Shown: piece after piece, positions 4,854-62,911 of the stretch
How positions within the stretch are numbered: position 1 is the stretch's first letter
Layout of the letters: each line of letters starts with the position of its first letter
DNA from: a virus
Reading direction: 5' to 3' (one strand)
Length of the DNA: 64,000 bases
Virus record (IMG/VR): IMGVR_UViG_3300027742_000001
Location: 1 to 64,000 of that record
Made by a program: the position numbers and the translations under genes
The notes under the pieces: generated by a model
What the model was told of the DNA's origin: nothing
Databases searched by the model: none
Seen by the model: the letters and a program-made list of their open reading frames with translations, nothing else

Positions 4854-4863
4854 AGGAGAACAA

Positions 4864-5133
4864 ATGAAAATTGAAAACTTAGAAAGGGTAATCTCACTAA
4901 AAGATGAATATGAGGCAATATTAAAACAAATAGAAACTATAAAAAACAATATAGATAGAGATGATTTATCATTTAGTTTATATGAGTATGGAGATAGTAG
5001 TGGCTTTTATATTGGAGATATTTATTACAAAGGAAACGTACCGAGTAATCTTTACAAAGGTATTTTAAAAGATGTTTTAGTAAGATTTGAAGCTCATAAA
5101 GAGTTATTACTAAAAGAATTAGAAGAGTTATAA
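4864..5133 (+). CDS. Unknown coiled-coil protein (89 aa)
   Basis: I place the start at the ATG at 4864 because AAAGGAG lies just upstream; an in-frame ATG at 4843 overlaps the previous gene and has no such site. Residues 5-30 (LERVISLKDEYEAILKQIET) look like a coiled coil, then a beta hairpin and a second helix. The final codons GAG-TTA-TAA are the first unit of a four-copy tandem repeat. Confidence 0.7.
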   Translation: MKIENLERVISLKDEYEAILKQIETIKNNIDRDDLSFSLYEYGDSSGFYIGDIYYKGNVPSNLYKGILKDVLVRFEAHKELLLKELEEL

Positions 5134-5160
5134 GAGTTATAAGAACTATAAGAACTATAA
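5125..5160 (+). repeat. Four tandem 9-bp repeats, each with a stop codon
   Basis: GAGTTATAA twice (5125-5133, 5134-5142), then GAACTATAA twice (5143-5151, 5152-5160). The first unit is the last two sense codons and stop of the upstream gene, so the array repeats that gene end three more times in frame. This looks like slippage expansion, leaving spare in-frame stops before the next ribosome-binding site. Confidence 0.85.
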
Positions 5161-5170
5161 AGGAGAATAA

Positions 5171-5434
5171 ATGAAGAAAAATATAGAACAACAAATTAAA
5201 CAACAACAATTACAGTTATTACTTTACCAAGGGAAAGTTTTAATGAATCATACTTACGGGTTTGTTTATTCAGATTCTAAAGGGAAACAAGTTAAGATAA
5301 ATTGTGGTAAGAATAGAAAAGGTAAAGACTTCTCTTTTAGCAACCCTCAATATTGGAGAGTACTAAGTACTTTTGAGGGAATTATTGTTAAGTTAGGTTT
5401 ATATAAACTTATTAGTATTAAGTTTAAAAAATAA
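5171..5434 (+). CDS. Unknown small basic protein (87 aa)
   Basis: ATG behind AAAGGAGAATAA. Glutamine-rich N-terminal helix (IEQQIKQQQLQLLLYQGK), a central lysine/arginine stretch (KINCGKNRKGKDFSF) and a basic C-terminus. The charge suggests nucleic-acid contact, but no family is recognised. Confidence 0.65.
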   Translation: MKKNIEQQIKQQQLQLLLYQGKVLMNHTYGFVYSDSKGKQVKINCGKNRKGKDFSFSNPQYWRVLSTFEGIIVKLGLYKLISIKFKK

Positions 5435-5443
5435 GGAGAATAA

Positions 5444-5623
5444 ATGAATAATGAAATTGAAGACTTAAGAGAAAGATTTAAAAACCTTATTGTTAATACT
5501 TGTAATAAAATAGGTTGTAAAAATTGTCATTTAGAATGGAAAGGTGGTTGTCCTGCAACTGAGTTACAAGATAAAATAAATGATTTGGAAATGGAAGAGT
5601 TTAAAAATAAGAATAAAAACTAA
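5444..5623 (+). CDS. Small cysteine-cluster protein (59 aa)
   Basis: ATG behind AATAAGGAGAATAA. Cysteines at 20, 25, 28 and 36 (C-x4-C-x2-C-x7-C, as in NTCNKIGCKNCHLEWKGGC) suggest a small metal-binding knuckle followed by an acidic helix (ELQDKINDLEMEEF). Last gene of the 4083 operon; a structured intergenic region follows. Function unknown. Confidence 0.65.
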   Translation: MNNEIEDLRERFKNLIVNTCNKIGCKNCHLEWKGGCPATELQDKINDLEMEEFKNKNKN

Positions 5624-5632
5624 CTTTTAGTA

Positions 5633-5719
5633 TTACGATATAAATAAAGCTTAAAAGGTTTAGCCTATACATTATACCTTTTTGAATAGTTCTTTAAAAT
5701 TTATATCGTAAAAAGGTAT
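5633..5719 (+). promoter_or_regulatory. Competing hairpins upstream of a promoter, possible attenuator
   Basis: An outer perfect 13-bp stem pairs 5633-5645 with 5699-5711. Inside it AAAAGGT (5653-5659) pairs with ACCTTTT (5676-5682). An alternative perfect 10-bp stem pairs 5674-5683 with 5710-5719 and cannot coexist with either. So 5676-5682 has two partners and 5710-5711 belongs to two stems, the geometry of a switch. It lies between a stop codon and the next promoter. Confidence 0.5.
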
Positions 5720-5724
5720 TCTAT

Positions 5725-5757
5725 TTAAGGATTATTTAATAAAGTAAGTGTTATAAT
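5725..5757 (+). promoter_or_regulatory. Sigma-70-type promoter, TTAAGG-N21-TATAAT
   Basis: TTAAGG (5725-5730), 21 bases, TATAAT (5752-5757), about 45 bases before the gene at 5803. Same architecture as the other left-arm promoters; it starts only five bases after the alternative hairpin ends. Confidence 0.7.
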
Positions 5758-5802
5758 ACTAATGTTTAAAAAATAAGAGTAAATTAAAAGGAGAAAATTA
5801 AA

Positions 5803-6108
5803 ATGAGAAATTTAAAAGAAGAAATGCTTAGTTTAATTGATTATTATAATAAAAGTATCGAAGATATTGATTATTGTTATATTCATAGTGCTAGTTGGCT
5901 TGATGAAGATGTAAAAGTACATTGTAAAGGTAATTTTGATTTAGAATATTTAGACTTTGAGTATAATAATGGATTCGGTGGTAGAGAAGTGGGTGGCTTT
6001 ATTGTGTTTAAAGATAAAGCATGGTTAGAAAGAAATGAGTACGATGGCTCTGAATGGTGGGAATACCTAGAAACACCTACTTTAGAAAACATAAAAGGAG
6101 AAAATTAA
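5803..6108 (+). CDS. Unknown acidic, aromatic-rich phage protein (101 aa)
   Basis: First gene of its operon; ATG behind AAAAGGAGAAAATTAAA. Contains NNGFGGREVGGF and NEYDGSEWWEYLETP; the latter YDGSEWWEY phrase recurs in small hypothetical phage proteins as far as I recall. Its TAA overlaps the next ATG by one base. Function unknown. Confidence 0.75.
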   Translation: MRNLKEEMLSLIDYYNKSIEDIDYCYIHSASWLDEDVKVHCKGNFDLEYLDFEYNNGFGGREVGGFIVFKDKAWLERNEYDGSEWWEYLETPTLENIKGEN

Positions 6109-6473
6109 TGAATAAAGAAACAAATGAACAAAATGAGTTAAAAGAAACAAAAGACCTAAACAAAATAACTAAATTCAGAATCTTTAAAAGTAAAGAATCA
6201 GAGGAAGTTATTACAGGAGTTATTTTAAATGCTGATTCTGAAAGTATTAAACAAGAAGAATACACTAAGCAAAAGGATACTAAAGGAAGGGAATTAGTAA
6301 AAGGTACTAGAATAGTTGGTAACTTAGAAGTTCTTTTAGATAAAACTAACTATGATATATTAGAGAAAAGGTCTTGGGAGAATTTCAATCAAGATATTTC
6401 TGAGGGATTAAGTGCTACACATATGTTTAATTTAATAGAAACTAATGGTAAGAGTTATAAAGTTAAAATTTAA
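6108..6473 (+). CDS. Unknown protein (121 aa)
   Basis: Start taken at the ATG at 6108 (TAATG overlap with the previous stop, AAAAGGAG upstream). A longer in-frame reading from 6054 would run deep into the previous gene without a ribosome-binding site. The N-terminus is charged and probably disordered (NKETNEQNELKETKDLNK); the rest alternates short strands (ITGVILNADS, IVGNLEVLLD). No family recognised. Confidence 0.7.
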   Translation: MNKETNEQNELKETKDLNKITKFRIFKSKESEEVITGVILNADSESIKQEEYTKQKDTKGRELVKGTRIVGNLEVLLDKTNYDILEKRSWENFNQDISEGLSATHMFNLIETNGKSYKVKI

Positions 6474-6488
6474 GTTAAGGAGGATATA

Positions 6489-6692
6489 ATGTTAATAGGA
6501 TATAATGAAAAGTTTGAAGTAAGATGTATTATAGAGGAAGGTATAGCTAAGTGTAAAGATGAAAGGGTTAATAATGTATATTTTCCTACTTGTACTGGAG
6601 TTGATGATGGGGAATATATTATCAAAGGAAGCTATAATAGGACTATTGATAAAGTTCATATTTTACCAAGAGATATTATTAAAGTAAATTAA
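6489..6692 (+). CDS. Unknown small beta-rich protein (67 aa)
   Basis: Strong TTAAGGAGGATATA-ATG start. Predominantly short strands (FEVRCIIEEGIAKC, GEYIIKGSYN, KVHILPRDIIKVN), possibly an SH3- or OB-like barrel. Two bases separate it from the primase, whose own ribosome-binding site is weak, so primase translation may depend on this gene. Confidence 0.7.
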   Translation: MLIGYNEKFEVRCIIEEGIAKCKDERVNNVYFPTCTGVDDGEYIIKGSYNRTIDKVHILPRDIIKVN

Positions 6693-6693
6693 T

Positions 6694-7638
6694 ATGGAAG
6701 ATTATAAACAAAAACTTTTAGAATATCTTGAAACAAATGATTTAAAACATAAAGACTCAGGAAATAAGGTACAACACGTGTGTATTTCACCTAATCATTC
6801 AGAGGAAAATCCTTCAGCATTTACTTCTTTTGAAAATGAAGGGGAATACTATGTACATTGTTCTTCATGTGGATTTCATTTAAATATGACTCAATTAGTA
6901 GAATTTCTTGGAGGAAAGGTTGATAAAAAATTATTATTTAAAAACAAAATGGATAAAATGTTCAAAGAGTTCAAAGCTAAAAGAGAACTCCAAGAAAGTA
7001 AACCTAAAAATGATTGGAAAAATAGTATCTTTTTACCTCCTAAATATAAAGACTTCAAACAAAATTATAGAGGGATAAGTCCTAAAACATTTTCTAAAGT
7101 AAGTTGTTTTATAACAGATAGTAATCATTATTATAAAAAGAGATTAATTTTTCCGTTATATAATTATAAAAAAGAATTACAAGGATTTGATGCTGTCAGT
7201 ACAAGTAAAGATATTGTTCCTAAAGTTCTTCGTTCTAAGAATTGTAAAACAGATAATTTCTTTGGGTTTGAAGATTTGTTAAATCAAGAAGACTTCAAGG
7301 AAGCTAATACATTATTTATTAACGAAGGGTTATTCTCTGCTTTAGCTTTTATAGAATTAGGATATAAAGCAGTATATAACTTCGGAGTTGCTTCAATAGA
7401 AGACAAGCTTGAAGTTCTTTATAAAAGTAATATTAAACAAATAGTCCTTGTAGGGGATAAAGACTCAGCAGGATTTGAGTTTAATGGTAAGAGTTATCAT
7501 TTATTAAAGAAATCTTTTAAAGTAAAATTCTTTAAACACCCATGGAGTGCTTCTGAAAAGAGTGATTCAAACGACTATCTTAAAGAAGATAAACAAAAGT
7601 TACAAGAGTTAATAGATAAGACTCTTAAAATAATTTAA
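6694..7638 (+). CDS. DNA primase with zinc-binding and Toprim domains
   Basis: 314 aa. Makes RNA primers for replication. The N-terminal zinc module has C30, H35, C56 and C59 around ENPSAF, the CHC2-type arrangement of bacterial and phage primases. The Toprim core follows: glutamate E211 in LFINEGLFSAL and D255-x-D257 in LVGDKDSAG, expected to bind catalytic metal. It lacks a fused helicase, and a separate DnaB-like helicase is encoded at 14888. The ATG lies two bases after the previous stop with no strong ribosome-binding site, which suggests coupling. The length is compact for the family. A hairpin follows the stop. Confidence 0.88.
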   Translation: MEDYKQKLLEYLETNDLKHKDSGNKVQHVCISPNHSEENPSAFTSFENEGEYYVHCSSCGFHLNMTQLVEFLGGKVDKKLLFKNKMDKMFKEFKAKRELQESKPKNDWKNSIFLPPKYKDFKQNYRGISPKTFSKVSCFITDSNHYYKKRLIFPLYNYKKELQGFDAVSTSKDIVPKVLRSKNCKTDNFFGFEDLLNQEDFKEANTLFINEGLFSALAFIELGYKAVYNFGVASIEDKLEVLYKSNIKQIVLVGDKDSAGFEFNGKSYHLLKKSFKVKFFKHPWSASEKSDSNDYLKEDKQKLQELIDKTLKII

Positions 7639-17722: not shown

Positions 17723-17962
17723 ATGGATATTTTTTGTGGATATAGTTCAATTAATAGTAGACTTTATTTAGATTTTTATAAAGATACTATTACTTTATAT
17801 GATTCTTATACAGATAATTATATAGAACTTGATGAAGAGGAAATAAACTTTATTATGTATTGGTGCTTCCATAAACATAGTCTAAGAAGAGGATATACTT
17901 ATGAAAATATTGATAATGATTTTATATATTATATAGATTTATGGGACAAAGGAGATAATTAA
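17723..17962 (+). CDS. Unknown acidic protein (79 aa)
   Basis: Abuts the kinase; ribosome-binding site GGGGGAT is A-poor and unlike the usual AAAGGAG. Very acidic and tyrosine rich (FYKDTITLYDSYTDNYIELD). Overlaps the polymerase ATG as TAATG, so it may set polymerase translation. Function unknown. Confidence 0.65.
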   Translation: MDIFCGYSSINSRLYLDFYKDTITLYDSYTDNYIELDEEEINFIMYWCFHKHSLRRGYTYENIDNDFIYYIDLWDKGDN

Positions 17963-20850
17963 TGAAAGTATTTAACACAGATGTTTTAGAGAGATGTCAA
18001 CAAGAGGGGGTTTCTCCTAATATTATTATAATAAAGAATTTTATTGGGAATAATGACCGAGGAAAGTTAACCAAATATGGTTTAGAAATGTTTAAATTCG
18101 GTATTTCTCCCAAAGAAGTTCTCTACATTAGCCTTTTTGATAAAGAAACAAAAAAGTTCGGTGTAGGGGAATTACGGGAGAGTGTTAAAGAATTAGAAGA
18201 GTTTCTAAGGGTTGTTGGTTGTAATGTCTTGGTCGATGATACTATTGGGTTTGAGAATAAAAAATATCATTCTAATTATATCTTTAGAAAATTATTAGGT
18301 AGGGATACATCTAAGTGGGAATCTAAAGGGGTTCTTGTGGATTCGTTAATTTCAGATGATTTAAAAGTTAAGATGGTTTGTGGATTACGATGGGAAACTT
18401 TAGCAAGGGAGAAAGATAGTAATATAATTATAGATAGTGAGTTTAAGTTAAATATTGATGATTTTGATATTACATTAATAAAAGATATAGATTCAGCTAA
18501 AAAGGCTTTTAAGGATATTGCAAAAAGTGAAAGGTTATATGGAGATTTAGAAACTAATAGTTTAAGATTTGAGAGAAAAGATAGTAAGATATTAACTATT
18601 GCTTGGACACCTAGACATAAACCTTTAACCTCTTATGTTTTTGCATATGAACATCCAAGTATAGATGTTTCAGATGAATATAAAAGTTTTATTACTAAAA
18701 ATATGAAAGCTATTATGACTAAAAGAAATACAGTTTATCATAATGGTCTATTTGATTTAAAATTTATTTGTAGATTCTTTGATATACACCCATTTGATAC
18801 CAATATGGATGATACTTTTGTTATTGCTAGAATTTTAAAAAATAATACCTTATCTAGTGATGAAAGAAGGGAATCTGTATCATTAAAAACTTTAGCATTT
18901 CCTTTAGTTGGGGATTGGGAAGTTCCATTAGAGAAACAAAAAGAAAGAATAATAAAAGAAAAAGGAATAAGTAAAGATGAGTTCGATTATTCTATGTATA
19001 AAGTTGAAGATTTAGTTAAGTATGCTGGAATAGACACTATTGTAATGCCTTTTGTTGATGATATGTTAAAACAATTAAACGAAGAACATCCCGCTGATGA
19101 CCCTATAAAAAATTGTTGGGAAGCTGAATGGAAAGAGGTTACTAGAGGTATTATTAAATTAATGTTAGATGGGATACCTTTAAATAGGGATGCTTGTGTA
19201 GATATGATTAAATCTTATGAAGATATATTGGATACCCACTTTAAAGTTTTACATGAGAATGATTATATTAAAAGTGTAGAGAAAATACTTAGAGCTGAGG
19301 CTATGGAAAAAGCTATGACTAAGTATAATGAAAAGGTTGACATAGCTAGACTTAAAGGTAAAGAATTTAAAGGTGTACCTCCTAATCCTGAAGAGAAAGA
19401 GAAGTATGATAGTATTGTACTAAAACCTAAGTTTAAACCTTCTAGTTCTCAACATAAGTACGTTCTAATATATGATGTTTGTAAATGTGATAACCCTATT
19501 TTAGTAGGAGAAATACATAATTCTAAGTTTAAAAAGAAAAAAACTTTTAAGAAAATAGAAGATGCTTGTAAGGAATTAAATGTTCCTGAGATGAAGCTTA
19601 GAAAATATCTAAGAGGTTTTAATAAATGTGAGATTCATAAAGGAGTTTTTGTAAGATATGAAGAGTGTACGGATACTGGATTACCTAAAGCTGATGATGA
19701 CCAATTTATTAAATATTCTAAGATGTACCCCGATAATAGTATATTAAGTATTTTTAGTGATATTGCCACTAAGAATAAAGAATTAGGGACTTATCTTAAA
19801 CCTTGGTTAGAATATGCAGATAATAGTTATGATGGTAGAATTCATGCTAATTTCTCCCCTGATACTACAAGTTTTAGGTGGGCTAGTACTAATCCAAACT
19901 TACAGCAGATACCTAAAGAAAGTAAAATTAGGTCAGTATTAGGGTATAATAAATATTCAGATAGGGTTATGATGTCCCAAGACTTTTCACAATTAGAAGT
20001 TTTGGCTAATATCAATATATGTAAAGATGAATTTAGTATTAACTTATTTAATAAAGGTATTGATGATGAGCATAGTGTAAACTTAATCAACGCATCGGTA
20101 GTGGCTGATAAATTTTCAGCAGTAAGAGGTTTAGACCCTTTAAATTTAGAACATTTGGCTTTAGTAAAGAAAGAATACGGTAGCCTTAGAAAGAAGATTA
20201 AGTCAGCTGTTACATTTCCTATGACATATTTAGCCTCACCTTTAGCTGTTAAAATGGGATTAGAGTGTTCTACTGAGGAAGCTGAAGGTATTTGGAATTC
20301 GTGGTGGGATGCACGAAAAGGATATAGAGATTGGGTTAATTTTACCTTTCAAAAATTTAAAAATGAAGGGTATTCAATCGTATTGGGAGGTTTACCTATA
20401 TTAGCTGAATACAATTATGATTTAGATAAAATAGAAACATTAGCTGAGTTAATGTCAGCAGTAGAAACTGCTAGAAAAAACAAACAACAAGATAGAGTTG
20501 ATTACTTAAAGAAAGTTGTAAGCTCTTTTAGAACTTTTGTAAATGTTCATGGACAAAGTGCCTCATTATTAACAAATCAAGGTATGTGTAGATTAATAAG
20601 GTGGTCTAGAGAGAATAATATAGATGTAAAAATGGCTAATACAGTTCACGATGATTTAATTGTGGATGTGGCTATTAAGGATTTAGATTTAGTTTGGAGT
20701 AAACAGAAAGAATTTATGACTATGGAGTATTTAGAAGACCAAGAGCTACCTATGAAAACTGATGCTGAAATAGGTAAGAGTATTCAATATGAATTAGGGG
20801 AGTACGAAGGGGAGAATAGACAGAAATTAAAAAAGGAGTTAAATATTTAA
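17962..20850 (+). CDS. Family A DNA polymerase with inserted domain
   Basis: 962 aa, the replicative polymerase. The 3'-5' exonuclease has GDLETNS (D195, E197), YHNGLFDLKF (D265) and YAGIDT (Y354, D358). The polymerase domain has SFRWASTNPNLQQIP, motif A MSQDFSQLE (D674), an O-helix RKKIKSAVTFPMTY (R743, K747, F752, Y756) and motif C TVHDDLIVD (D897-D898). Two oddities stand out. K747 to F752 is one residue longer than the usual K-x3-F. Residues about 506-568, between SSSQ and TGLPK, are an insertion resembling a NUMOD1-type helix-turn-helix of homing endonucleases. No N-terminal 5' nuclease is fused; that enzyme is encoded at 25387. A homing endonuclease gene follows directly. Confidence 0.93.
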   Translation: MKVFNTDVLERCQQEGVSPNIIIIKNFIGNNDRGKLTKYGLEMFKFGISPKEVLYISLFDKETKKFGVGELRESVKELEEFLRVVGCNVLVDDTIGFENKKYHSNYIFRKLLGRDTSKWESKGVLVDSLISDDLKVKMVCGLRWETLAREKDSNIIIDSEFKLNIDDFDITLIKDIDSAKKAFKDIAKSERLYGDLETNSLRFERKDSKILTIAWTPRHKPLTSYVFAYEHPSIDVSDEYKSFITKNMKAIMTKRNTVYHNGLFDLKFICRFFDIHPFDTNMDDTFVIARILKNNTLSSDERRESVSLKTLAFPLVGDWEVPLEKQKERIIKEKGISKDEFDYSMYKVEDLVKYAGIDTIVMPFVDDMLKQLNEEHPADDPIKNCWEAEWKEVTRGIIKLMLDGIPLNRDACVDMIKSYEDILDTHFKVLHENDYIKSVEKILRAEAMEKAMTKYNEKVDIARLKGKEFKGVPPNPEEKEKYDSIVLKPKFKPSSSQHKYVLIYDVCKCDNPILVGEIHNSKFKKKKTFKKIEDACKELNVPEMKLRKYLRGFNKCEIHKGVFVRYEECTDTGLPKADDDQFIKYSKMYPDNSILSIFSDIATKNKELGTYLKPWLEYADNSYDGRIHANFSPDTTSFRWASTNPNLQQIPKESKIRSVLGYNKYSDRVMMSQDFSQLEVLANINICKDEFSINLFNKGIDDEHSVNLINASVVADKFSAVRGLDPLNLEHLALVKKEYGSLRKKIKSAVTFPMTYLASPLAVKMGLECSTEEAEGIWNSWWDARKGYRDWVNFTFQKFKNEGYSIVLGGLPILAEYNYDLDKIETLAELMSAVETARKNKQQDRVDYLKKVVSSFRTFVNVHGQSASLLTNQGMCRLIRWSRENNIDVKMANTVHDDLIVDVAIKDLDLVWSKQKEFMTMEYLEDQELPMKTDAEIGKSIQYELGEYEGENRQKLKKELNI

Positions 20851-20851
20851 A

Positions 20852-22003
20852 ATGAGAGAGCAAAAAGTTATAGATGAAGTTATAGAGATGAATAGTTTCT
20901 ACGATTTATCTGAATATGATTTTACATTAGGTTATGATGAAAAGTCTAAAGTTATATGTCCTAAACATGGAATCCTAAGTAGAAGATTTAGAGATTTAAA
21001 GAGAGGTCTTACTTGCGTAGAATGTAATAAAGAAAGATATGTAAATGTTCAAAGAGAAAGTACCGAAGGTTTCATAAGTAAAATTAATAAAAAATTTATT
21101 AATCATACTATTGATTGGGAAGGATTTGAATATCCAAAAATGCAACATAATAAAATAACTTTAAAATGTAAAAAGCATGGTGCATTTGAAACTACCCCAA
21201 ACAGAGCTTTAAATGTTGCTCTTTCTCCTTGTGTTCAATGTTCATGTGAAATGAGAGGAGTTAGTAATGTTGGAGACAAGAAATCTTTTTTAAAGAAAGC
21301 TAAGGAAAAGTATGGAGATAAGTATTCCTATGATAGATTAGTTTTCAAAAGGTTAAAAGATGATGTAGAGATTTATTGTAATATACATAAAGAGTATTTT
21401 ATGATAATGGCTAATAACTTTATATATTCAGCTAAGATTGGTTGTCCTAAATGTATCCAAGACAAGATTAAGGAAACACAAAGAGTAACTCAAAAGGAGT
21501 TTATTAGGAGGTGTAAAGAGACTCATGGTAATAAATTTGATTTAGGTAATGCTATATATGATGGAGGAACTAGAAAAGTAGAAGTTAAGTGTAATATATG
21601 TAATAATATTTTTTATCCAATAGCTGATAATTTCTCTAAAGGGTCAGGATGCCCCTATTGTGCGAATATATCTAAATTTAATAAATGGAAAGATGAACCT
21701 ACAAGATTATACGTATTAAGATTATACAACGGATTATATAAAATTGGAGTTACTATAAATACAGTAATCAAAAGATACCATAAAGATTTAGAGAGAGATA
21801 AGTATGAAATAATTTATGAGGAATTTTTCAAAGAAGGGAGAGAGCCTTTCAGTATTGAACAAAAAATTAGACACTTGATGTGGGAATATCATTATGAAGG
21901 GGAGAGTCCTTTTAGAGTTACAGGTACTAATGAAGTTTTCACAGTAAACCCAATAAAATATATTGAATTAGCAAAACAACAGATTAAAGGAGGCAAAAAC
22001 TAA
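20852..22003 (+). CDS. GIY-YIG homing endonuclease with zinc-ribbon repeats
   Basis: 383 aa. Four repeats of a zinc-ribbon-like unit of about 55-65 residues (each ending in a C-x2-C such as LTCVEC, SPCVQC, IGCPKC and SGCPYC) precede a GIY-YIG-type nuclease domain from about residue 288: LYVLRLYNGLYKIGVT, a downstream IKRYH arginine, and the glutamate-containing SIEQKIRHLMWE. Such proteins cut an unoccupied target and spread their own gene. It begins two bases after the polymerase stop, with AAAAAAGGAG inside the polymerase end, so it is co-transcribed. The - strand protein at 55730 shares this architecture. Confidence 0.8.
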   Translation: MREQKVIDEVIEMNSFYDLSEYDFTLGYDEKSKVICPKHGILSRRFRDLKRGLTCVECNKERYVNVQRESTEGFISKINKKFINHTIDWEGFEYPKMQHNKITLKCKKHGAFETTPNRALNVALSPCVQCSCEMRGVSNVGDKKSFLKKAKEKYGDKYSYDRLVFKRLKDDVEIYCNIHKEYFMIMANNFIYSAKIGCPKCIQDKIKETQRVTQKEFIRRCKETHGNKFDLGNAIYDGGTRKVEVKCNICNNIFYPIADNFSKGSGCPYCANISKFNKWKDEPTRLYVLRLYNGLYKIGVTINTVIKRYHKDLERDKYEIIYEEFFKEGREPFSIEQKIRHLMWEYHYEGESPFRVTGTNEVFTVNPIKYIELAKQQIKGGKN

Positions 22004-42890: not shown

Positions 42891-43376
42891 TTATATTATT
42901 TTTAGTAAGATTTGTTGAATTGCCTCATATGCTTGTCTATGTATGACTGTTTCTTTTAAAGTTTTTGTTTCAATAAGTTCCCATTCTCTATTAGTAAATA
43001 TTGTAATTAAGTCTTGAATAATGTTTCTTATTTCAAGGGGTTTAATATGAATTCTTCTTATACAAGGAAACTTTTCTAATTCATCTTTAAGTTGTTCATA
43101 TGCACTACATACTATAAAAGCTGTTTGCATTTGTAACTTAGATATTTCTTTTATAAGCTCTATTCCATTGACATTAGGCATTTTCATGTCTGTTACAACA
43201 ACCTTTATAGGTTTATTACTATTAAGTCTTTCCTTAAAAATATCTAATGCAACTTTTCCATCCTCAGCAGTAACTACATTAAAACCTATTGTTCTAAGTT
43301 GCTCTGCTGTTTTCTCTCTTATTAATACTTCATCTTCAACTAAAAGGATTTCAGTACTTGTTGTTTCTATAATCAT
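42891..43376 (-). CDS. CheY-like response regulator receiver protein
   Basis: 161 aa. A single receiver domain with every catalytic residue in place: acidic pair E14-D15 in LLVEDEVLIR, phosphoacceptor D63 in VVTDMKMPN, S91 in IVCSAYE, and K112 in IHIKPLE. Receiver domains switch conformation when phosphorylated by a histidine kinase. A C-terminal extension of about 40 helical residues follows, without a DNA-binding domain. Codon use matches the neighbouring late genes. It lies between fibre and lysis genes and is transcribed with them, an unusual place for such a protein. Possible targets are host chemotaxis or two-component signalling. Confidence 0.88.
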   Translation of the reverse strand: MIIETTSTEILLVEDEVLIREKTAEQLRTIGFNVVTAEDGKVALDIFKERLNSNKPIKVVVTDMKMPNVNGIELIKEISKLQMQTAFIVCSAYEQLKDELEKFPCIRRIHIKPLEIRNIIQDLITIFTNREWELIETKTLKETVIHRQAYEAIQQILLKII

Positions 43377-55729: not shown

Positions 55730-56674
55730 TTAATTTAATTTATCTATGTTAAAAACATCTTTGTTAAATACTTCTGTATTGCCATTTGGTAAAAAACATT
55801 CTTTTCTTTTTACCTTATATTCTTTATAAAGATTTAAGTACCTTAGTTCTTCTTTGTAAGCATCTTCCCCTTTTAAGTATTTAGTAGATAGTAGTAAAAG
55901 AGGCTCATGCTCTCTAAACTCCTTAGCTCTAAATCTTTCTTTAATAGTGTTATCTTTAGTCGTTATTCCTATCTTGTAATAGTATTTCCCTTTATTTGTA
56001 AATCTGATATAATATAACCAAGTTGGTTTATCATAATAAGCTATAAATGTATTATCTGAGCTTCCCCTTTTCTCTTGTTTACATTCCTTACAAGATATAT
56101 GTCCTTTATATAAATGACTGATATGGCAGTCAAATATTGTATTATGCTCTAAACATTTTACACTATGTCTTCTTAATATTCTATCATGTTTTAATACTTC
56201 AAATTTATTAGGAAAAATAGAATCTACTTTATTTTGATAATATTCAAGGTCTTTTATTTGTTTATCTGAAGCATTTTTAGAGGCACACTCTTTACAAGTA
56301 TGCTTACCTTGTAATACTTCATAAGCGATTTGTTCAAACCATTTATTATGAATATTACATTTTAAGGTTACTTTATCATCTATTGTTTTATAGACTACTT
56401 TAGATAAATCTAATTTGTCACCCCATACCTCTTTAACTTTTTCTAAAAATCCTTTAGTAGTATGTTTATGTATCCTACCTTCACATTGAGGACACTTATT
56501 ACTTCTTTTATAGTTACCAAGTGTTCTATAAAACACATGATTACAATTTTTACAAGTAAATTTTATATTACTTTTAGCATTTTTATAATCTTTTTCATCA
56601 AAATAGAACTTACCATTTACAAGTTGAATCAATAACTTCTTAGTTTGTTCTACAGTTCTTTTCTTTTTTATCAT
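55730..56674 (-). CDS. GIY-YIG homing endonuclease with zinc-ribbon repeats
   Basis: 314 aa. Three zinc-ribbon-like repeats (ending NKCPQC, HTCKEC, ISCKEC) precede a GIY-YIG-type nuclease domain: TWLYYIRF, YYYKIGITTKDNTIKER and a later glutamate region EDAYKEELRY. It has the same architecture as the + strand protein at 20852 with one repeat fewer. It interrupts the conserved tail tube-to-chaperone order. Upstream, next to its AAAGG ribosome-binding site, is a complex RNA structure that may hold its expression down. Free-standing, no intron seen. Confidence 0.78.
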   Translation of the reverse strand: MIKKKRTVEQTKKLLIQLVNGKFYFDEKDYKNAKSNIKFTCKNCNHVFYRTLGNYKRSNKCPQCEGRIHKHTTKGFLEKVKEVWGDKLDLSKVVYKTIDDKVTLKCNIHNKWFEQIAYEVLQGKHTCKECASKNASDKQIKDLEYYQNKVDSIFPNKFEVLKHDRILRRHSVKCLEHNTIFDCHISHLYKGHISCKECKQEKRGSSDNTFIAYYDKPTWLYYIRFTNKGKYYYKIGITTKDNTIKERFRAKEFREHEPLLLLSTKYLKGEDAYKEELRYLNLYKEYKVKRKECFLPNGNTEVFNKDVFNIDKLN

Positions 56675-60065: not shown

Positions 60066-61550
60066 CTATTTTATGTGTTTAATATATACTTTGTTACCAC
60101 AATCCCAATATCTTAAGTAATCATTATTCAACATATTTTCATATTCAGTTAGATTAGAATCATATACTTCTAGTTTATCTTTTAACTTATGCTTCATAAA
60201 CTTTTGTCTATTAAGTACCTCTAAAGAGCCTTCTTTAAAATAATAATAATTAGGTTTACTTTCATGTGTAAAATAAAAACCTAATGATTCATATAAAGAA
60301 CCATCAAATATGCTCTTATCACAATAACTAACTAAAGTTCCTTTAAAGTTTCTTTCAAAGTATTTTAATAACTTACTCGCTCCTCCAATAACTGAAGTGC
60401 CTAATTTGTTACAAAATCTTATAAGTTCATAATCATGTTTATTACTAAATCTAGATTTTCCAAAAGTCATTATTGATACTAAATCATTATTATAAATTAA
60501 CCCATACTTTAATGTGCTTGAAGAATATCCTTGTAAATGATTATCATTAATAAAATCTTTTGCTTCCTTTGTGCTTAACTCAACTAAAGTACATTTTCTA
60601 GCATATATTTTATTAGTAACAATTCCTAATCTCTTTTTGATTAAATCTTTTATTATGTCTTGTTTATTAATCCATTGGTGTTCAAAGATATGTAATAATT
60701 GAATCCCTTTTTGATTTGCTACGTTTGTCTTGTTTAAGTGATAATCTTTTGTTTTACCTCTTATACCTTCTGAGTGCCAATACAATCCATTATATTCAAA
60801 CCCTATTGCTAAATCTTCAATATAAACATCTATTTCTTTTAAATCTAAAATTCTACTATTTTGAGTTATCTCTTTATCTGTTAAAGATTGAATAAATTCA
60901 TATAGTACTATTTCACCTTTAGATTTAACATTTTGACATCCACAAGAAGTTTTAGAGCCATTTCTTATATAAGTATTTTGCCATTCAAAAACTTCATCAC
61001 AAAAAGGACATTTAAACTTAGAGATATATCTATCAAAATCTTTGTGCTTTTTTATATTAGGTTCAACTACCTCAATATTATTTAAAGTTTGACCTTTTTT
61101 TGGTTTTTGTTTTCTTAATGTACACCCACATGATTTTCTACCTTTTTTACTAACCTCTTTAATAGTAGTAATAAAAGAATCTCCACAGTCTACACATTTA
61201 AACTTAGCTTTTCTATCTTTATGACTTGATTCAGTTTTTTCAATAGGAAATAATTCAAGTATCTCTACATTATATTTACCAATCTTTTGTCCTACTTTAT
61301 ACTTATTGTAAGGTAATTGACACCCACAAGATATTTTAGCATTAGTTCTCCCTCGTATAACGTGGTCTAAACTAGCTTCAAAAGGTTCTTTACAAAAAGG
61401 ACATTCAAAAATAGCTCTCTTTTGACTTCTATTTTTACCTTCAGGAATCCAATAATCAGTAAGCATTTTAACTTTCTGAGTTCCTACGTAATCACCTTTA
61501 TTATATTTTCTATTTCTTAGTTTATTTTGCTTATTTTTTTCTGTATCCAA
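60066..61550 (-). CDS. Putative homing endonuclease, EDxHD/Vsr-like, with zinc ribbons
   Basis: 494 aa. Three zinc-ribbon repeats with C-x2-C...C-G-C (FECPFCKEP...SCGC; FKCVDCGDS...SCGC; FKCPFCDEV...SCGC) precede a PD-(D/E)XK-type nuclease domain. KEIDVYIEDLAIGFEYNGLYWHSE there shows the E-x-D and E-x-N-G-x-x-W-H pattern of Vsr-like homing enzymes. The C-terminal 180 residues (AKDFINDNHLQGY, YELIRFCNKLG, LVSYCDKSIFDG) recur with such endonucleases. It starts with TTG behind AAAAAGGAG and has its own promoter, and it splits the capsid gene from the neck genes. Confidence 0.75.
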   Translation of the reverse strand: MDTEKNKQNKLRNRKYNKGDYVGTQKVKMLTDYWIPEGKNRSQKRAIFECPFCKEPFEASLDHVIRGRTNAKISCGCQLPYNKYKVGQKIGKYNVEILELFPIEKTESSHKDRKAKFKCVDCGDSFITTIKEVSKKGRKSCGCTLRKQKPKKGQTLNNIEVVEPNIKKHKDFDRYISKFKCPFCDEVFEWQNTYIRNGSKTSCGCQNVKSKGEIVLYEFIQSLTDKEITQNSRILDLKEIDVYIEDLAIGFEYNGLYWHSEGIRGKTKDYHLNKTNVANQKGIQLLHIFEHQWINKQDIIKDLIKKRLGIVTNKIYARKCTLVELSTKEAKDFINDNHLQGYSSSTLKYGLIYNNDLVSIMTFGKSRFSNKHDYELIRFCNKLGTSVIGGASKLLKYFERNFKGTLVSYCDKSIFDGSLYESLGFYFTHESKPNYYYFKEGSLEVLNRQKFMKHKLKDKLEVYDSNLTEYENMLNNDYLRYWDCGNKVYIKHIK

Positions 61551-61669: not shown

Positions 61670-62911
61670 CTAAGCTATATTATATCCTAATACAACATAT
61701 TTTCTATCTGTATCAACTGGGAAGTTAGTTTCAGTACTATCATATAAACCACCAAACCCAACTCTACTTCTCATAGCCCAAGCTTGAGTATCATTTTTGA
61801 TATTTTCATCAGTTTTAACAGTTGTAGAACCAGCTTTCATATATGCTTTTAAGAAATCAACATTAGCCATGATTAATGAACCAAATGTATTTGAAGAAGT
61901 TTCAATGATTCCAGTAGCACCAACTTGAGGCATAAAGTCTAGTTGATATAGAGGCATACCATTAAATCTAGTTACAATATCACCATTACTAATGATTTGT
62001 CTTTCAAATACATCAGTAAATCTTGACATTCTTTGATAAGTTTTAAGGTCAGCAAATAAAGCAACTTTTCCTAAAGAAATTTGAGTATTAGTCATATATT
62101 TCCCACCTGAAGTTTGCATTTCAAATACTTTATCAAGGAATTGTGTATCAGATAGAGTTGAACCCCCAAAGTTTACTTTAGCTTTTTCAAAACCTAATCT
62201 TCTGATTCCTTTGAATTGAGTGATAGGGTTAGAAGCAGTTACAGCATTTCCATCAATATCAGTTTTATCCCAATCAGTACCATCAAATTCAGCTACAACA
62301 TTGTGTCCATTAGTAATTGCGTTTTCAAATGCTTCAGCGAAACCTTGTTGCATATCTCTAATAACACCAACAGCTAAATCAATCATAGAATCTTCTAAAG
62401 ACTCAGTTGAGATAACAGCATAAGACATTACTTTATCAACAACATATCTGAAGTGAGTGAAAGTTTGGTCAGAAGCAGTTGCGTCATCACCTTCTCCAAC
62501 TCTAAATACATTTAATCTAGTGTCTTGTAATGCTCTAGTAATAGATACATCCATAACTTCTTCCATTGGAATTAATGAAGAAAGTTTAATTGAATTCCAA
62601 GCATCTAAAATTAGTTGCCCTGAAGGTCCTGAAGGAATTAAATCACTAATATCAGAAGTTAAAAGTGATTTAGTAACACCTTTTGTTTCAGCATATGCTA
62701 AAATATCTTCTACATCTTCTTGTCCAAAAGACAACCCATTTTTTTCTTTAATAGACTTAACAGCCCAAGCAACATCTAATACTCTCATATCTTCTTTAGT
62801 TGCTCTTTTAACATTATAAGATGTATAATCTTTTGGAGCATTTGCTTTTGGCATTTTAGTTTCAGCTTTTTGTGAAACTTTCTTTTCAATCATTTTGTCA
62901 AATTTAGACAT
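61670..62911 (-). CDS. Major capsid protein, HK97 fold
   Basis: 413 aa. The helical, charged N-terminus (FDKMIEKKVSQKAETKMPKA) may be a removable scaffold part. HK97-fold features follow: LIPMEEVMDVSITRAL, an extended arm with RYVVDKVMSYAVISTESLED (the usual E-loop/spine-helix transition), spine helix VGVIRDMQQGFAEAFENAI, and C-terminal P- and A-domain strands (GMPLYQLDFMPQ, LIMANVDFLKAYMKAG). Flanked by the protease/scaffold gene and neck genes. Codon use is more C-rich than in its neighbours, as expected for an abundant product. Hairpin after the stop. Confidence 0.88.
   Translation of the reverse strand: MSKFDKMIEKKVSQKAETKMPKANAPKDYTSYNVKRATKEDMRVLDVAWAVKSIKEKNGLSFGQEDVEDILAYAETKGVTKSLLTSDISDLIPSGPSGQLILDAWNSIKLSSLIPMEEVMDVSITRALQDTRLNVFRVGEGDDATASDQTFTHFRYVVDKVMSYAVISTESLEDSMIDLAVGVIRDMQQGFAEAFENAITNGHNVVAEFDGTDWDKTDIDGNAVTASNPITQFKGIRRLGFEKAKVNFGGSTLSDTQFLDKVFEMQTSGGKYMTNTQISLGKVALFADLKTYQRMSRFTDVFERQIISNGDIVTRFNGMPLYQLDFMPQVGATGIIETSSNTFGSLIMANVDFLKAYMKAGSTTVKTDENIKNDTQAWAMRSRVGFGGLYDSTETNFPVDTDRKYVVLGYNIA

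Follow-up and report, generated by a model that had tools for sequence, protein, structure and literature searches.

An insertion at the thumb tip of a phage family A DNA polymerase, with probable resemblance to the DNA-binding modules of homing endonucleases

The window analysed here is a stretch of 64,000 nucleotides, bases 1-64000 of a 91,913-base (92-kb) IMG/VR virus record. Within this window, a gene encoding a family A DNA polymerase (PolA) carries extra sequence in its thumb and is followed by an endonuclease gene. The corresponding features are as follows:

17962-20850 (+ strand): family A DNA polymerase gene (PolA), 962 aa, with 3'-5' exonuclease and polymerase domains
19447-19479 (+ strand; residues 496-506): thumb helix H1, conserved and outside the insertion by alignment; modelled as a helix at pLDDT ~80-88
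19507-19665 (+ strand; ~residues 516-568): insertion at the thumb tip, ~53 residues, left edge uncertain to residue 513 (nt 19498)
19534-19575 (+ strand; residues 525-538): predicted first helix of the insert, KTFKKIEDACKELN region (AlphaFold2, pLDDT 53-62 in the full model)
19588-19614 (+ strand; residues 543-551): predicted second helix of the insert, EMKLRKYLR region (AlphaFold2, low confidence)
19627-19656 (+ strand; residues 556-565): predicted beta hairpin of the insert, CEIHKGVFVR region (AlphaFold2, low confidence)
20852-22003 (+ strand): free-standing endonuclease gene of another type, 383 aa, without NUMOD (phrog_681, 1.2e-43)

The PolA protein matched the Pfam families DNA_pol_A (1.2e-23) and DNA_pol_A_exo1 (3'-5' exonuclease, 1.4e-8) as well as the phrog_17 DNA polymerase (2.3e-59). 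Its membership in family A (PF00476, phrog_17) is borne out by the presence of both domains and of the catalytic motifs, with D195, E197, D358, D674, K747, H896 and D897 the same as in its relatives. The AlphaFold2 model of PolA matched Pol I of phage G20c (7r0k) and Klenow in the PDB. The closest relatives are Schitoviridae and herellevirus polymerases at ~22% identity, and the N4-like polymerases of the Schitoviridae, closest overall, share the same domain order. When three polymerase fragments were searched against viral contigs, phages and plasmids, only distant polymerases or none were found, and no close relative was found in viral contigs and phages by the presumed major head protein (61670-62911, - strand), for which tblastn against 50,697 phage records gave nothing. 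Judged by these polymerase and head protein searches, the phage seems to belong to an orphan lineage.

To describe the extra sequence, PolA was aligned with 76 family A polymerase relatives, and the segment from the FxPSS motif (FKPSSSQ) to 10 residues past TGxP (TGLPKADD) was counted. This segment is 99 residues long in PolA and usually 43-48 in the relatives, with 46 in the Schitoviridae, which are without the insertion. In 70 of the 76 relatives it measures 33-48 residues (exactly 46 in 46 of them), in one 50, in four herelleviruses 57-71, and in one viral polymerase 144. The initial annotation had placed extra sequence between SSSQ and TGLPK, and the alignment confirms a thumb-tip insertion there, between H1 and the TGxP segment, that family A polymerases do not generally share. 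The segments KKTFKKIEDACKELNVPEMK, KLRKYLRGF and HKGVFVRYEE are present in PolA where they had been located. Of the proposed limits, about residues 506 and 568, the right one stands, while the left one is slightly early, with H1 occupying residues 496-506 and the insertion beginning at 513 or 516. SSSQHKYVLIYDVCK is the ordinary thumb helix H1, confidently predicted in the full-length AlphaFold2 model, and residues 496-506 (QHKYVLIYDVCK) align with QVAILLYDVMQL / EHKGRLLFKVMGL of the relatives; HKYVLIYDVCK, easily taken for a NUMOD strand, is H1 by alignment and model. A typical Schitovirus reads FNPGSNQQVAILLYDVMQLPVIERTKTKQPSAASD, and PolA reads FKPSSSQHKYVLIYDVCKCDNPILV-[~53 extra]-TDTGLPKADDD.

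The 53 residues of the insert include 15 K/R and 8 D/E, and its GC content is 26% against 29-31% in the flanks, so that a recent import is not indicated by base composition. No homologue of the insert was found in any other polymerase by tblastn in phages, which gave chance matches confined to its first 25 residues, or by searching viral contigs with the insert pattern. A PDB sequence search with the insert returned a single hit, to a designed helical protein (E=0.85). Just before H1, at residues ~466-488 (19357-19425), PolA has another, smaller charged expansion of ~20 residues relative to the Schitoviridae, in a part of the model with low confidence.

The full-length AlphaFold2 model, built from 56 sequences, has a mean pLDDT of 83 and a pTM of 0.81. 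Residues 511-524 are disordered in it (pLDDT below 50), followed by two predicted helices and a hairpin with strands at 556-559 and 562-565, the helices and strands of the insert having a pLDDT of 50-62. Folded alone, without relatives, the insert gave the same helix-helix order at a mean pLDDT of 45; Foldseek with the insert alone gave no match. The helix-turn-helix (HTH) plus hairpin pattern suggested earlier thus agrees with the prediction, an agreement that is not by itself proof of the fold. Compared with a NUMOD-like fold, HTH and hairpin are predicted at an insert pLDDT of only 39-62 and the model lacks the first strand that is usual in NUMOD. As a fold, HTH plus hairpin is a low-confidence prediction; with the sequence comparisons below, the HTH reading of the insert is well supported.

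The named family proposed at first, NUMOD1 (PF07453), was not matched anywhere in the record at E<=10, and its model found nothing in five related phages. The nearest family is instead PF22083 (I-HmuI_NUMOD-like), which matched the 92-kb record, read in all six frames, only within the insert (19537-19644, E=0.011), with a score of 12.7-13.4 bits, about half the curated cut-off of 27. Among 24,736 Pfam models, PF22083 was one of the three best for the insert (E=0.06-0.1), beside the unrelated DUF2799 and RWP-RK; nine shuffles of the insert gave no NUMOD match against Pfam, and two of them gave other families at similar E. I-HmuI itself was taken from the annotated SPO1 record (gene 31.2), identical to PDB 1u3e. 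When whole PolA was compared with I-HmuI by BLASTP, the best segment fell on the insert (residues 527-567, 32% identity, two-sequence E=0.04), and the insert alone gave 38% identity at E=0.004.

A module profile was built from 61 C-terminal modules of HNH endonucleases from phages and viral contigs. In HMMER shuffle tests with this profile the insert ranked 2nd and 7th of 2001, and a glocal score test gave 4-6 of 1500; the two tests lend only moderate support to a NUMOD similarity, the HMMER profile search being too weak to decide. With hhalign, the insert aligned to the profile at a probability of 73-83%. The alignment at 73% (score 24.6) spans 40 columns, starting in the first helix and taking in the hairpin. 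Without I-HmuI in the profile the probability was 69%; profiles of just the first 12 modules and of just the other 49 gave 73% and 46%. The maximum score in 600 shuffles was 18.1, and of 493 tiles cut from long ORFs of the window, only those on the insert scored above 18.0 (26.9 and 24.7). The 885 tiles drawn from other phage and bacterial loci included the held-out I-HmuI module, which scored 59.6; no other tile reached 24.1, and two generic HTH tiles were at 20.9 and 19.0, not far below the insert. Measured against the 600 shuffles and all unrelated tiles, the profile-level similarity of the insert to known I-HmuI_NUMOD-like modules is beyond chance, and the broader proposal of a resemblance to homing-endonuclease DNA-binding modules holds up on this measure. 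The similarity tests were chosen successively and several share one profile, so they are not independent. Taken as a sequence argument, the specific NUMOD/I-HmuI reading is no more than probable.

In the C-terminal NUMOD-like domain of I-HmuI (PF22083; 1u3e; SPO1 gene 31.2), an HTH is followed by a hairpin, as predicted for the insert, the key positions (F/Y..., AC.EL, G, HKG...RY) are alike, identity is 32-38% over the aligned part, and modules of the I-HmuI type end in KGY.(F/W).Y, to which the predicted hairpin of the insert corresponds. Both are found with phrog_17 DNA polymerase genes. The insert differs in lying inside the polymerase, with no nuclease domain there except the 3'-5' exonuclease, in scoring below the family cut-off and in a first strand that is absent from the model. 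Insertions in the thumb are also known from other family A polymerases. In phage T7 gp5, the thioredoxin-binding domain is a thumb insertion that confers processivity (PMC5984650); it has another sequence and needs thioredoxin. Thumb insertions 1 and 2 of the plant organellar polymerases AtPOLIA/IB are thought to contact duplex DNA, as proposed here; they are unrelated in sequence and are linked to DNA contacts and lesion bypass (PMC7699545).

The endonuclease gene does lie directly after the polymerase gene as initially described, the polymerase stop ending at 20850 and the endonuclease ATG standing at 20852. Its product matched DUF723 (2.8e-5) and, weakly, DUF4379 and MUG113, with treble-clef segments and a weak GIY-YIG-like end, and free-standing relatives of it are common in phages. 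No similarity to the insert was detected (best E=1.3), and as a source of the insert this neighbour was rejected, being of a different type (DUF723/treble-clef, phrog_681) and without similarity. Its proximity is therefore no evidence of capture and says little on the origin of the insert, which leaves the capture that the adjoining gene had seemed to hint at unsupported. A plausible better candidate for the kind of donor is an I-HmuI-type HNH endonuclease; such enzymes with PF22083 occur in introns of phrog_17 polymerase genes of Bacillus phages (PMC11878797). No I-HmuI-type (PF22083-bearing) endonuclease gene was found elsewhere in the record in six frames, and the window, at Rfam gathering cut-offs, gave neither a group I intron nor any other structured RNA. 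Other genes in the window include a second treble-clef endonuclease-like gene among structural genes (55730-56674, - strand; DUF4379, weak T5orf172), a 494-aa zinc-finger-rich protein, possibly another mobile-type nuclease, adjoining the presumed major head protein gene (60066-61550, - strand), and, unusually for a phage, an ORF (42891-43376, - strand) whose sequence (EILLVEDE...TDMKMPNVNG) by eye resembles the receiver domain of a response regulator.

In family A polymerases, the tip of the thumb is positioned above the product duplex. In the reading we prefer, which we hold to be about evenly balanced between right and wrong, the insert would be a compact HTH plus hairpin module, NUMOD-like by descent or fold, holding DNA at the thumb tip of a polymerase that, judged from its sequence, would stay active. 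A module of ~53 residues would sit in the thumb-tip loop between H1 and the TGxP segment, and would most probably derive from, or share its fold with, the NUMOD-like domain at the C terminus of phage homing endonucleases of the I-HmuI type. Suspended from the thumb above newly synthesised duplex, this basic module could hold DNA via backbone or groove contacts, and such holding would lead to higher affinity or processivity. DNA contact, a processivity effect and endonuclease descent are what we infer here. The narrower version, a captured homing-endonuclease NUMOD module acting as a built-in thumb-tip DNA clamp that gives processivity without an accessory protein, is tentative and rather less likely.

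It is possible, though we doubt it, that a lineage-specific expansion of the thumb tip converged on a small HTH-like shape, without endonuclease descent and still contacting duplex DNA. Such convergence would be in keeping with the variability of the thumb tip, seen in the herelleviruses with 57-71 residues and no NUMOD similarity and in a viral polymerase with a DnaJ-type zinc finger, with the generic HTH tiles that score near the insert in hhalign, and with the smaller expansion just before H1. Against it, the NUMOD-like similarity spans helix, helix and the KG-aromatic-RY hairpin, and the length of the insert fits one module.

That the insert serves to dock a phage or host protein rather than to bind DNA seems improbable to us. 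Its basic composition and HTH-like pattern favour DNA, and the T7 thioredoxin-binding domain is inserted on the other side of H1, before it, whereas the PolA insertion lies after H1 in both the alignment and the AlphaFold2 model. What speaks for docking is that the T7 and human mitochondrial polymerases bind processivity factors by thumb insertions (PMC7699545). Least of all do we credit the other initial suggestion, a functionally neutral scar of a failed homing-endonuclease invasion: an endonuclease gene does adjoin the polymerase gene and phage polymerase genes are a common target of intron-borne endonucleases (PMC11878797), but a recent disabling scar is made unlikely by the open reading frame through the in-frame insert, the intact catalytic motifs and the matching base composition, and the window has no intron or other Rfam match and a neighbouring nuclease of another type.

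In the polymerase with the 144-residue segment (L001; IMGVR_UViG_3300025132_000959, 4861-6891), the corresponding place at the thumb tip holds a zinc-finger segment of the DnaJ type (CxxCxGxG; PF00684, E=3e-4, below cut-off), unrelated to the PolA insert, and herellevirus thumb-tip loops are longer and often basic. Modules may have been added at the thumb tip repeatedly. The ICP1 Odn nuclease (PMC8263062) offers a precedent, in the opposite direction, for domain shuffling between phage-related nucleases and replication proteins. A search of open-access papers found none that names DNA polymerase, thumb and NUMOD together.

If the reading of a captured, DNA-holding NUMOD module is true, the phage would have turned the DNA-recognition module of a gene that parasitised it into a component of its own replication enzyme. 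The thumb tip of family A polymerases would then be a place where DNA-binding modules can generally dock, an HTH in PolA and a DnaJ-type zinc finger in L001. Swapping DNA-binding modules is a laboratory route to more processive polymerases, so that a natural example would be directly testable.
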